Notes under the pieces: generated by a model
The model's input: only the letters and a program-made list of their open reading frames with translations
Told to the model about the DNA's origin: nothing
The model's database searches: none
Program-made: the position numbers and the translations under genes
From: Alphaproteobacteria bacterium
GTDB lineage: Bacteria; Pseudomonadota; Alphaproteobacteria; Thalassobaculales; Thalassobaculaceae
Assembly (NCBI GenBank): GCA_028822575.1
Contig: JAPKDN010000241.1
Location: 1 to 5,457, forward strand
Length of the DNA stretch: 5,457 bases
Reading direction: 5' to 3'
Shown: positions 1,441 through 5,160 of the stretch, in pieces
Layout: each line of letters starts with the position of its first letter
How positions within the stretch are numbered: position 1 is the stretch's first letter

Positions 1441-1450
1441 TTTTATTGAT

Positions 1451-1466
1451 CTCGGATCTATCCGAG
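1451..1466. repeat. short perfect dyad upstream of merF
   Basis: CTCGGAT-CT-ATCCGAG forms two 7-base arms around a 2-base centre. As RNA it would form a 6-base stem with a TCTA loop. It lies about 55 bases before the proposed merF -10 box. No T-run follows it on either strand, so it is not an intrinsic terminator. It could be a regulator binding site or chance. Confidence 0.35.
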
Positions 1467-1488
1467 CATAGTGAACGCAAAGCGCTGA

Positions 1489-1526
1489 GCCCGCCAGTTG
1501 GTCGGGCCCCCGGTTAGGCTTATACT
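1489..1526 (+). promoter_or_regulatory. candidate merF promoter with overlapping dyad
   Basis: TTGGTC (1498-1503) and TATACT (1521-1526) are separated by 17 bases and fit a sigma-70-type -35/-10 pair. A near-palindrome, GCCCGCCAGTTGGTCGGGC (1489-1507, one bulged base), overlaps the -35 box and would suit a repressor or activator site. The spacer is not the 19-20 bases expected of a classic MerR-controlled promoter. Transcription starting about 7 bases after the -10 box would begin at or next to the merF ATG at 1533. This is prediction from base patterns only. Confidence 0.4.
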
Positions 1527-1532
1527 TTAGCG

Positions 1533-1736
1533 ATGAACAATAAATCACTCTTTCGCATCGGCATCATCGGAACCTCCCTGGCGGCTCTTTGTTGTTTCAC
1601 GCCGGTCTTGGTGGTGGTGCTGAAAACCCTTGGCATGGCAAGTTTGATCCCGAGGCTTGATCCGATCCTGATCCCGGTGATGGTCTCTTTCGCGGCCTTT
1701 ACCTTCTGGGCGTATAGCCGAAAGGATAGGGACTAG
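1533..1736 (+). CDS. merF: MerF family mercuric-ion transport protein
   Basis: This small inner-membrane protein (67 residues) of the MerF family moves Hg(II) into the cytoplasm, normally for reduction by MerA. The N-terminus FRIGIIGTSLAALCCFTPVLVVVL matches the family signature: helix 1 carries the vicinal Cys pair (Cys20-Cys21) followed by FTPV. A short linker leads into a second hydrophobic helix (about residues 42-61), and a charged SRKDRD tail follows. Plasmid-type MerF is about 80 residues with a second Cys pair in the cytoplasmic tail; here the protein stops before that pair. The ATG at 1533 has no Shine-Dalgarno sequence and sits 7 bases after a TATACT box, so translation may be leaderless. 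The next reading frame, a GDCCVxC-family remnant and a common merF companion, begins about 6 bases later. No merR, merA, merT or merP is in the window. The frame appears intact, but whether it is expressed is unknown. Confidence 0.85.
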   Translation: MNNKSLFRIGIIGTSLAALCCFTPVLVVVLKTLGMASLIPRLDPILIPVMVSFAAFTFWAYSRKDRD

Positions 1737-1741
1737 CGCCA

Positions 1742-1948
1742 ATACTCGAACTTCTCTCCACGCTGACCTGCCTGGATTGCGGGCATATTAGAACCGAGGC
1801 GATGCCAACGGCATGCCTACCAGTTTTCCATGATTGCAAGGGATGCGGCGTAGTCTTGAAGCCAAAGCCCGGCGATTGCTGAGTCGATTGTTCATACGCC
1901 TCCGTGCCCTGCCCGCCAATTCAGGAAGACGACTGCCGTTGCGCCTGA
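1742..1948 (+). pseudogene. GDCCVxC-domain small Cys-rich protein remnant (TGA at a motif Cys)
   Basis: This frame reads ILELLSTLTCLDCGH, then FHDCKGCGVVLKPKPGDC, then TGA (1880-1882), then VDCSYASVPCPPIQEDDCRC, and ends at TGA 1946-1948. That is the family layout as I know it: an N-terminal CxxC, a central CxxC, GDCCVxCSYG and CPPIQ. Its function is not established; the Cys pairs suggest metal binding or redox work beside mercury transport. The second Cys of GDCC is TGA. I recall this family having some selenocysteine members at that site, so the TGA may once have been, or still be, Sec. Decay is also evident. The first codon position is ATA (1742-1744), and an in-frame TAG at 1727-1729 leaves no ATG, GTG or TTG start. 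The usual TDACQFF appears as TACLPVF, explained by an extra C at 1812, G-to-A at 1819 and a lost T in the run at 1824-1827. A pseudogene is the best call. Family identity is strong; Sec is open. Confidence 0.75.
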
Positions 1949-1973
1949 CATCGCCAGATAGAAGCGATCGGAC

Positions 1974-2261
1974 ATGATCGACGGACCGACCAAGACGGCC
2001 CACGCGATCGGTATCAATAATATCAGTCTCGAGGTCGATGATCCCGACGCGTTGCGCGCGGCGCTGGCCGTCAGGGATGTGGAGGTGATTAGGCACCAGA
2101 ACAACAATTTCTTCGATCCGTGGGGCAACCGGATAGAAATCATCGAACACCGGGGCATCCAGTTTTCCAAAACGGAGGCGGTATTCCGCGCCATGGACCG
2201 CGGCAACATCAAGAAGACCGCGGCGGCGAAGAAGGAATTGGCGGAAAAGGGTCCCGGTTAA
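1974..2261 (+). pseudogene. VOC (glyoxalase/dioxygenase fold) protein, C-terminal half only
   Basis: The 95-residue frame contains one beta-alpha-beta-beta-beta unit. GINNISLEVDD is the first strand, PDALRAALAVRDVEV the helix, and NNNFFDPWGNRIEIIEH the closing strands with the metal-ligand Glu region. A tail follows (IQFSKTEAVFRAMD, then KKTAAAKKELAEKG) like that of certain alphaproteobacterial VOC proteins of unassigned substrate. VOC proteins of this kind are usually about 130 residues or more with two such units; the N-terminal one is missing. Read upstream, the frame meets TAG at 1959-1961 just beyond a short stretch (RKTTAVAPDIAR) that loosely recalls a VOC N-terminus, suggesting an internal deletion. 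The ATG at 1974 has no ribosome-binding site. Only 25 bases separate it from the GDCCVxC remnant. The frame could still be translated as a single-unit protein, but I call it a remnant. Confidence 0.6.
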
Positions 2262-2325: not shown

Positions 2326-5160
2326 ATGACCGTCGCGACAGTCGATGGAAAACCCGTCACACCGCTGATCGACGGCTTGGCGCCCGACGATCGGAAACTG
2401 CGCAATCGACGCGTGATCGCTGACCCGGCGATGCTGGCGGAACGCGTTGAGAAAGCCTGGAGGGACACGGATGATCACCTCGCGTTTCGGGCCCTGCTCC
2501 TCGACCTGCTCCGCCAAGCGTTGGATGATGGCCGTGAAGAGATAAAAACCCGGTTCATGCGCAAGAATGACGGCGCCGAAGCGGTATTGGCGCAGGCCTA
2601 TCTGATGGATACCCTGATTCGCGCGATCCACGACGCCGCGACCTCCAAACTCTATCGTGCGTCAAACCCCACCCATGCGGAGCAAATTTGCGTCATCGCC
2701 GTCGGCGGATACGGCCGGGGTGAATTGGCGCCATTTTCGGATATAGATCTGCTTTTTCTGCTGCCCTACAAACAAACCCCGCATGTCGAGCAGGTCGTCG
2801 AGGCGATCCTGTATCTTTTATGGGATCTGCGACTGAAAGTCGGCCATTCAACCCGTTCGATCGATGAATGCATGCGTCAGGCCAAGGCTGACATCACCAT
2901 CCGCACGGCGATGCTGGAGGCCCGTCACATTTGCGGCGAACAGCCACTTATGCTGGAGATGGTCACGCGTTTTCAAAAGGAGATCGTTGCCGGCACCGCG
3001 TTGGAGTTCGTCGAGGCGAAACTTCAGGAATCCGACGAACGACACAAGAGGCTCGGTGATTCGCGCTATGTAATCGAGCCCAACGTCAAGGAAGGCAAGG
3101 GCGGCCTTCGGGATCTGCACAAGTTGTTCTGGATCGGCAAATACGTTTATCAGGTCGAGGCCGTATCCGCGCTGGTCGACAAGAAGGTGTTGTCGCTAGT
3201 CGAAGCCAAACGGTTCGCCAAGGCCCAAAAGCAGCTCTGGACGATCCGTTGTCACCTTCACTATCTCGCCGGTCGGGCCGAAGAACGACTGACAGTGGAC
3301 CTTCAACGAGAGATCTCTGCGCTCCTAGGCTATACCGATCGGATTGGTAGCGCCGCCGTTGAACGGTTCATGAAACATTACTACCTCACGGTCAAGGATA
3401 TCGGCGATCTGACCCGAATTTTTTGCGCGGCCATTGAGGCGGAACATCAGCGCCGCCCGCGTCTACGCCTGTCGAACTTGTGGACCCGGAACCGGCAGTT
3501 CGGTGACTTCAAAATTGACGGCAACCGTCTAAACGCCAATGATGATGGGATATTCGAAAAGGATCCGGTCAATCTTGTTCGGATGTTCCATGTCGCCCAA
3601 GCCAATAACCTGGAATTCCATCCGCATATTTTGCGTCTTGTCACCCAGAACTTGAAACGGATCGACTCGTCCTTGCGCAACGACGCGGAGGCGAATCGGC
3701 TGTTCCTGGAGATCTTGACCTCGGAAAAGGGTCCGGAACGGATCTTGCGGCGGATGAACGAGGCTCAGGTTTTTGGCCGTTTCGTGCCCGATTTCGGCCG
3801 TGTCGTCGCGCAGATGCAATACGATATGTATCATGTGTACACGGTGGACGAGCATACGATCATTATGCTTGGCATCCTGTTCAGGATCGAGCAGGGAGGT
3901 TTGTCGGAGATCGCGCCGGTTGCTTCCGACGTAGTCCATAAGCTGATTTCCAGGCGCGAGCTTTATGTGGCCGTCCTGCTTCATGATATTGCCAAGGGGC
4001 GCGGCGGAGATCATTCAATCCTCGGCGAGAAAGTCGCCCGTCGGCTTTGTCCCCGGTTGGGCATGACCAAGCAGGAAACCGAAACCGTCGCGTGGCTGGT
4101 GCGCTGGCATCTGCTGATGAGCTATGCCGCGTTCAAGCGCGACGTGAATGATCCGAAAACCATCGACGATTTTACCAATATCGTCCAATCCCCAGAGCGG
4201 CTTCGCCTGCTGTTGGTTCTGACGGTCGCCGATATCCGCGCCGTCGGGCCTAATGTCTGGAATGGCTGGAAGGCGGCACTGCTTAGGGATCTTTATTGGC
4301 GGGCGGAGGAGGTGCTGTCCGGGCAAACCTTGGAAGCCGGTCAAAATGCACGGGTCGAGGCGGTCCTGATTGAACTGCGGGAGACACTGCCCGACTGGGA
4401 CGACACAGCCTTCGCCGCACATGTCGAGCGCGGCTATCCTTCTTATTGGCTTACCCATGACGTCGAAACCTTGATGCGTCACGCCCGACTGATACGCAGC
4501 GCTGCGGCCGAGGACAAACAGCTAACCGTCGCCACGCGGATCGATGAATTTCGCGAAGTTACTGAAGTCACGGTCCACACTGCGGACCATCCGGGTCTGT
4601 TCTCGCGAATTGCCGGGGCCATGGCCTCCGTGGGCGCCAATATCGTTGACGCGCGGGTTGTTACGCTGAGTACCGGCATGGCTATGGACACGTTCTGGAT
4701 TCAGGACGCCAATCGCAAAGCCTTCGAGGGGCCGGACGCGCAATCACAGATCGATACCGCGATCGAACACGCACTGTCCGGCGAACTTAAGTTGAAACAG
4801 GTGATCGAAAAACGCCCATCCGCATTGCCAAAGCGAGCCCGTGGCATGACCGTGGCGCCCAGGGTCCTGATTGACAACAAGGCAAGCACAACCCATACCG
4901 TGGTTGAGGTCAACGGCACCGACCGGGCCGGTCTGCTGCATCGTCTGACCCGCAAGCTGGCGCAGAAAAATCTGCAGATTGCGGCGGCCAAGATCTCCAC
5001 ATACGGCGAGAGCATCGTCGACGTGTTCTATGTCAAGGATCTATTCGGCTTGAAAATCCAGAGCGAAAGTAGGCTCGACGGGATTCGCGAGGCAATGCTG
5101 GAAGAACTAGAACCGGTTGGAAAACGATCGAAGAAAGTGGCCATTGCGGCGGCCAACTAA
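2326..5160 (+). CDS. glnD: bifunctional [protein-PII] uridylyltransferase/uridylyl-removing enzyme GlnD
   Basis: GlnD is the primary nitrogen sensor. When glutamine is low it adds UMP to PII proteins (GlnB/GlnK) from UTP; when glutamine is high it removes it, so setting glutamine synthetase and nitrogen-gene activity from the cytosol. The 944 residues match the usual length (about 900-950). The nucleotidyltransferase domain carries GGYGRGELAPFSDIDLL at 127-143, with catalytic Asp139 and Asp141. The conserved EPNVKEGKGGLRDLH lies at 251-265. The HD hydrolase domain follows: HVYTVDEH at 503-510, His553-Asp554 (LLHDIAKGRGGDH), His595 (VRWH) and LTVADIRAVGP at 632-642. Two C-terminal ACT domains bind glutamine: VTVHTADHPGLFSRI from 748 and VVEVNGTDRAGLLHRL from 859. 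All catalytic motifs are present and no break is seen. The ATG has GGGAGG 7 bases before it. In many alphaproteobacteria murJ follows glnD; here a YbjN-domain gene does, after a 186-base gap, so glnD is probably transcribed alone. Confidence 0.98.
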   Translation: MTVATVDGKPVTPLIDGLAPDDRKLRNRRVIADPAMLAERVEKAWRDTDDHLAFRALLLDLLRQALDDGREEIKTRFMRKNDGAEAVLAQAYLMDTLIRAIHDAATSKLYRASNPTHAEQICVIAVGGYGRGELAPFSDIDLLFLLPYKQTPHVEQVVEAILYLLWDLRLKVGHSTRSIDECMRQAKADITIRTAMLEARHICGEQPLMLEMVTRFQKEIVAGTALEFVEAKLQESDERHKRLGDSRYVIEPNVKEGKGGLRDLHKLFWIGKYVYQVEAVSALVDKKVLSLVEAKRFAKAQKQLWTIRCHLHYLAGRAEERLTVDLQREISALLGYTDRIGSAAVERFMKHYYLTVKDIGDLTRIFCAAIEAEHQRRPRLRLSNLWTRNRQFGDFKIDGNRLNANDDGIFEKDPVNLVRMFHVAQANNLEFHPHILRLVTQNLKRIDSSLRNDAEANRLFLEILTSEKGPERILRRMNEAQVFGRFVPDFGRVVAQMQYDMYHVYTVDEHTIIMLGILFRIEQGGLSEIAPVASDVVHKLISRRELYVAVLLHDIAKGRGGDHSILGEKVARRLCPRLGMTKQETETVAWLVRWHLLMSYAAFKRDVNDPKTIDDFTNIVQSPERLRLLLVLTVADIRAVGPNVWNGWKAALLRDLYWRAEEVLSGQTLEAGQNARVEAVLIELRETLPDWDDTAFAAHVERGYPSYWLTHDVETLMRHARLIRSAAAEDKQLTVATRIDEFREVTEVTVHTADHPGLFSRIAGAMASVGANIVDARVVTLSTGMAMDTFWIQDANRKAFEGPDAQSQIDTAIEHALSGELKLKQVIEKRPSALPKRARGMTVAPRVLIDNKASTTHTVVEVNGTDRAGLLHRLTRKLAQKNLQIAAAKISTYGESIVDVFYVKDLFGLKIQSESRLDGIREAMLEELEPVGKRSKKVAIAAAN

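Follow-up and report, generated by a model that had tools for sequence, protein, structure and literature searches.

An in-frame TGA in a GDCCVxC family gene between merF and glnD is very probably a nonsense mutation in a recent pseudogene

The stretch of alphaproteobacterial DNA analysed here (5,457 nt; hereafter the window) carries a merF-like gene, the remnant of a GDCCVxC family gene directly downstream of it, a shortened glyoxalase/VOC-like gene and glnD, the two damaged genes both lying upstream of glnD (Table 1). Comparison of GlnD sequences placed the source of the window among uncultured Alphaproteobacteria. By this comparison the nearest genome contigs, among the matches listed, were L003 in genome G001 (MAG BS301-5m-G13; 85% identity over the best segment) and L004 in G002 (82%). 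L003 shares the gene order of the window, namely merF, GDCCVxC, glyoxalase and glnD, and its merF counterpart lies at 1615-1818. Among the matches listed, merF and GDCCVxC matches were found only in L003 of the seven nearest loci tested (L003-L009), and a glyoxalase match only in L003 and L004. The name glyoxalase/VOC is weakly based, as PF13669 matched the window copy with an E-value of 0.15 and the L003 protein matched Fos-type VOC models far under their cut-offs (best 39.2 bits, cut-off 275). A merF neighbourhood of the GDCCVxC gene was also seen on an Agrobacterium plasmid, in a comparison covering two stretches out of the 342 plasmid records that matched. Positions 1-1530 of the window, about 1.5 kb, hold no recognisable gene, while L003 has a TcuA-like flavoprotein gene there. 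A Pfam search with ten ORFs from 1-1380 returned a single match (E 0.1), no plasmid DNA match to 1-1530 was found, and Rfam gave no match in the window at the gathering score.

Table 1. Coordinates of features in the window and of GDCCVxC gene copies used for comparison.
Feature	Position	Strand	Basis
merF-like gene, 67 aa, intact ORF	1533..1736	+	NF033565 trans_MerF 73.4 bits (cut-off 50); PF11431 40.8 bits (cut-off 24.3)
GDCCVxC (NF041374 / GOS_B) gene remnant, probable pseudogene	1742..1948	+	NF041374 match; counterpart of the open L003 gene, 1823-2029
ATA codon in the place of the start codon; ATG in L003 and L127	1742..1744	+	comparison of sequences
Altered MPTDAC..DC segment, reading MPTACLPVFHDC	1802..1837	+	alignment to L003 (MPTDACQYFYDC) and to A1
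In-frame TGA in the position of the second GDCC Cys; nonsense mutation as the favoured reading	1880..1882	+	frame and homology on both sides; TGT in L003 and L127
Glyoxalase/VOC-like gene remnant	1974..2261	+	codon alignment; 55 codons (165 bp, in frame) missing relative to L003 2076-2528
glnD, [protein-PII] uridylyltransferase, intact 944-aa ORF	2326..5160	+	NF003467 1297.6 bits (cut-off 959)
Sec-form GDCCVxC gene L161, TGA at MPTDAC	1568-1735		
Sec-form GDCCVxC gene L162, TGA at MPTDAC	1449-1637	-	
Sec-form GDCCVxC genes L190, L191, L192 and L193, TGA at MPTDAC			
GDCCVxC copy L163 (G134:C160), TGA in the position of the second GDCC Cys	1812-1958		
Degenerate or fragmentary copies L184, L185 and L186			
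Copies with TAG, L187 and L188			
Copy with TGA just past the domain, L183			

The frame around the TGA opens after TAG 1727-1729 and closes at TGA 1946-1948. Against the curated NF041374 cut-off of 40 bits, which the window copy passes, the part upstream of the TGA scored 46.4 bits alone and the frame read through scored 77.3 bits. The first-pass annotation of this DNA had placed homology on both sides of the TGA in one frame, which was confirmed, with DCKGCG before and CSYASVPCPPIQ after. It was also right that the TGA stands at a conserved Cys: in alignment A1, where 23 of the 26 family matches from the search were compared with the window copy, the aligned residue is Cys in 23/23 other proteins. 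Hence the window has an in-frame UGA where its homologues have Cys. The name-giving motif itself is broken (GDC-stop-VDC), so that the window copy is a broken member of the family and not a working one. Reassignment of TGA as a sense codon was rejected, as glnD of the window uses 13 TGG and no TGA codons.

A TGA at a conserved Cys had been taken as the classic sign of selenocysteine (Sec), and this weighting did not hold. All single-base changes that would yield TGA in three stop-free relatives fall on Cys codons (10/10 in L003, 11/11 in L127 and 9/9 in L165, the last count covering a 62-codon stretch). If a TGA is present at all, it is therefore expected at a Cys, and finding it there carries almost no weight.

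The nearest relatives among the matches listed carry Cys at the site. The GDCCVxC gene of L003 is open with TGT, the G002 copy (L127), which sits on a separate contig (C192), has TGT as well, and so does L128, a duplicate of L003. The UGA is thus not conserved in close relatives, and the suggestion that the parent gene had been a selenoprotein at the GDCC site finds no support in these two nearest copies. Within the order of G001, the family was found in 14/36 genomes with 18 matches, 0/18 of which contain a stop. Over 95 covering matches of 98 (not all independent), the codon at the window site was TGC in 69, TGT in 22, TGA in 2 and CGC in 2.

The TGA is accompanied by other lesions. Apart from the ATA that replaces the start codon, no ATG, GTG or TTG was found in frame ahead of the first CxxC of the window copy. 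The altered MPTDAC segment violates the conserved columns C23 and Y27, and the change from MPTDACQYFYDC to MPTACLPVFHDC is taken to be the outcome of compensating small indels, as read from the alignment. In total, the window copy breaks 4/22 conserved columns, the second worst among 97 rows in a ranking that leans towards intact copies, since most loci fetched are top-scoring matches and a row from a protein database cannot contain a stop. Of these rows, 95 break two columns or fewer (79 none, 11 one, 5 two), and the degenerate L184 breaks eight. Three columns invariant in A1 (C48, C51 and C58) fall in the part lost after the TGA.

Differences between the GDCCVxC genes of the window and L003 numbered 15, 13 and 36 at codon positions 1, 2 and 3, and dN/dS was 0.16 for GDCCVxC, 0.19 for merF, 0.25 for the glyoxalase remnant and 0.063 for glnD, with dS near saturation (0.9 to 1.6). 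The excess at third positions together with the dN/dS of 0.16 indicates that the inactivation of the GDCCVxC gene must be recent. The open sister copy L003 (1823-2029) reads CKGRAT for CKGCG and so has lost a Cys invariant in A1, suggesting that this lineage may be under loose constraint.

These lesions bear on whether the gene works and the contig is simply wrong at the TGA base. A sequencing or assembly error of this kind would fit a difference confined to a single codon, and a 99% identical GlnD (P0027) exists on another contig, with a further GlnD, P0028, at 95%; however, the downstream glnD is open across 2.8 kb, and the error would have to extend to the ATA, the MPTDAC segment and the 165 bp absent from the neighbouring gene. 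We consider this explanation improbable, and we infer that true mutations, not assembly errors, account for the lesions.

The alternative that the organism inserts Sec at 1880-1882, giving GDCU, perhaps with an atypical SECIS element and a start at the ATA or coupling to merF, draws on the family itself, which includes Sec forms. Table 1 of PMC13188914 lists NF041374/GOS_B as a predicted selenoprotein family, with its Sec motif entered as '-' ('not available'); PMC2398784 counts 11 Sec and 125 Cys sequences of GOS_B, and the family is also listed in PMC9312934. For Alphaproteobacteria, one selenoprotein family was counted in the 2006 set of PMC1794560. A literature search by the family name GDCCVxC found no paper, nor did one for selenoprotein, MerF and zinc ribbon together.

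We therefore looked at where the family uses Sec, in genome surveys that overlap one another and for which genome completeness is not reported. Among 385 genomes of the class, 60 were over the cut-off and three had a full-length match with one TGA (G309, G219 and G134). The order of G309 (24 genomes) had 12 over the cut-off, and 6/12 full-length matches there contained one TGA. In the six Sec forms of this one order (G309, G219, G776, G784, G793 and G794), the TGA stands at MPTDAC in 6/6 and GDCC is Cys, whereas the TGA of the window is at GDCC. The statement in the first-pass annotation that some family members are annotated with Sec at the GDCC site was thus not borne out by the six Sec forms found, and the assignment of MPTDAC as a Sec site of NF041374 comes solely from the present survey.

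SelB was found in 6/6 Sec-form genomes, with SelA and a tRNA-Sec with TCA anticodon also in G309 and G219, and in 5/6 genomes of this order with a stop-free full-length match. A 12-nt core 3' of the TGA is invariant in 6/6 Sec forms, which is suggestive only, as it also encodes residues conserved in related species. The L161 gene is accompanied by moaD (91.5 bits, cut-off 66.15), a moaE-like gene (164.5 bits, under the cut-off of 175) and a branched-chain aminotransferase gene, with homologues of all three on 6/6 Sec-form stretches; this shared neighbourhood hints at a link of the Sec-form genes to molybdenum cofactor synthesis.

Hairpins were evaluated by the bSECIS geometry given in the legend of Fig. 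2 of PMC13188914: a loop of 3-9 nt with G in its first two positions, an upper stem of 4-16 bp, a spacing of 16-37 nt and an energy of -7.5 kcal/mol or lower. No hairpin with this geometry follows the window TGA, even at a 3-bp stem and any negative energy. The complementary segments pointed out in the first-pass annotation, GTCG 1883-1886 with CGAC 1930-1933 and ATTG 1887-1890 with CAAT 1917-1920, lie at these positions, but their pairing is not above chance.

All six window segments that were folded had less stable structures than their shuffles on average (z +0.85 to +2.00). Fold energy is a poor marker of real or likely SECIS segments too (z -0.36 for E. coli fdhF, +0.50 for L162 and -1.67 for L161), so energies by themselves say little. 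Among the Sec forms, 3/6 gave a hairpin with 22-nt spacing at -13.8 to -17.5 kcal/mol, L191 gave a different hairpin (-10.3), L162 reached only -6.2 and L192 gave none. For the E. coli fdhF control, the -7.5 threshold was reached only once a 3-bp stem was allowed (-12.6); strict settings miss both fdhF and L162, and strict-scan shuffles passed in 3/60 cases for the window, 11/60 for L161, 16/60 for L162 and 17/60 for fdhF. As both the sensitivity and the specificity of the scan are limited, the negative result in the window is supporting and not decisive. A relaxed Rfam search of the window, L161, L162 and L163 returned six sub-threshold matches, to unrelated families only.

Sec decoding may be available to the lineage of the window. 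The first-pass annotation had named a genome without sel genes as one mark of a plain nonsense mutation, and this does not describe G001, the nearest genome among the matches listed, whose contig C6 holds both selA and selB and whose contig C114 holds a tRNA-Sec (anticodon TCA), although contamination is possible as G001 is a MAG. Neither selA nor selB was found in G002, whose best tRNA-Sec match (49.2 bits) slightly exceeds the gathering score (47); that score was also passed by 7/12 genomes and 5/14 controls, and a match of this type is common in genomes without SelB.

Another TGA at the same site occurs in L163. This copy shares the TGA site with the window and differs from it in keeping the ATG and an MPTDAC-like segment (MPSDAC) and in its neighbourhood, where the ORFs, judged by their translations, are presumably PEPCK-like and MerR-like. 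In the relaxed scan L163 gave a hairpin at -13.2 kcal/mol with a 3-bp upper stem and a spacing of 27. However, neither selA, selB nor a strong tRNA-Sec was found in G134, which has a second GDCCVxC copy (L164) with TGC at the site. The TGA of L163 is read as a second nonsense mutation.

Sec at GDCU thus has in its favour a TGA that lies in frame at a conserved Cys and is flanked by homology, the machinery in G001, the Sec forms of the family and L163, but it is opposed by the site used in those Sec forms, the hairpin scan, the TGT in the two nearest copies, the machinery not found in G134 and the missing standard start codon. On these grounds (the site, the scan, the relatives and the start codon) Sec at 1880 was rejected, and we regard it as quite improbable. 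A wider form of this reading, in which Sec occupies either of two sites in the family, MPTDAC in one order and, rarely elsewhere, GDCC (the window and G134) with a SECIS that the known model does not describe, is kept alive mainly by L163 and is very improbable. A working short protein that stops at GDC because of the TGA is scarcely credible: the pre-TGA part still scores over the family cut-off, but it lacks a standard start codon ahead of the first CxxC, its MPTDAC segment is altered and the lost part holds A1-invariant columns (C48, C51 and C58).

Between the two readings first offered, Sec or nonsense, the second is the one favoured by Cys in the nearest relatives, the lack of a SECIS-like hairpin in the scan and the other lesions. 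TGA 1880-1882 is very probably a nonsense mutation in a recent pseudogene of the known GDCCVxC family, which is an ordinary finding. The ancestral gene, open in sister genomes, would have encoded a small Cys-rich putative metal-binding protein beside the mercury transporter gene merF. In the lineage of the window, the Cys codon at GDCC would then have become TGA, with changes also in the start codon and the MPTDAC segment, and the next, glyoxalase-like gene would have taken an internal deletion, while merF and glnD stayed open. Any translated product would stop at GDC, without the C-terminal cysteines. The window copy has presumably lost its function, and metal binding is the probable role of the working protein.

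Loss of the gene seems to recur. In a phylum sample of 398 genomes, 101 were over the cut-off and six further stop-bearing matches were fetched (L183-L188), of which L184, L185, L186, L187 and L188, in five other genomes, are degenerate or stop-bearing; no SelB match at E 1e-60 was found in the six genomes. Partial matches with TAA in G329 and G534 were left out of the fetched set. These results show why, in a small gene rich in Cys, a TGA in frame at a conserved Cys is only weak evidence of Sec: every single-base change to TGA can fall on a Cys codon there. They also indicate MPTDAC, not the name-giving GDCC, as a Sec site of NF041374 '(seleno)proteins', a point that annotation could take up.

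Compared with known systems, the window copy belongs to the sequence family of the NF041374 GDCCVxC (seleno)protein, 'Hypothetical protein GOS_B', and has a merF neighbourhood in common with the Agrobacterium plasmid copy, but differs in its internal TGA at GDCC, the absence of a standard start codon and the altered MPTDAC segment. With the Sec forms of G309's order it shares the family and an in-frame TGA at a conserved Cys; these, in contrast, have their TGA at MPTDAC, SelB in their genomes, the invariant 12-nt core and moaD-, moaE- and aminotransferase-like neighbours.
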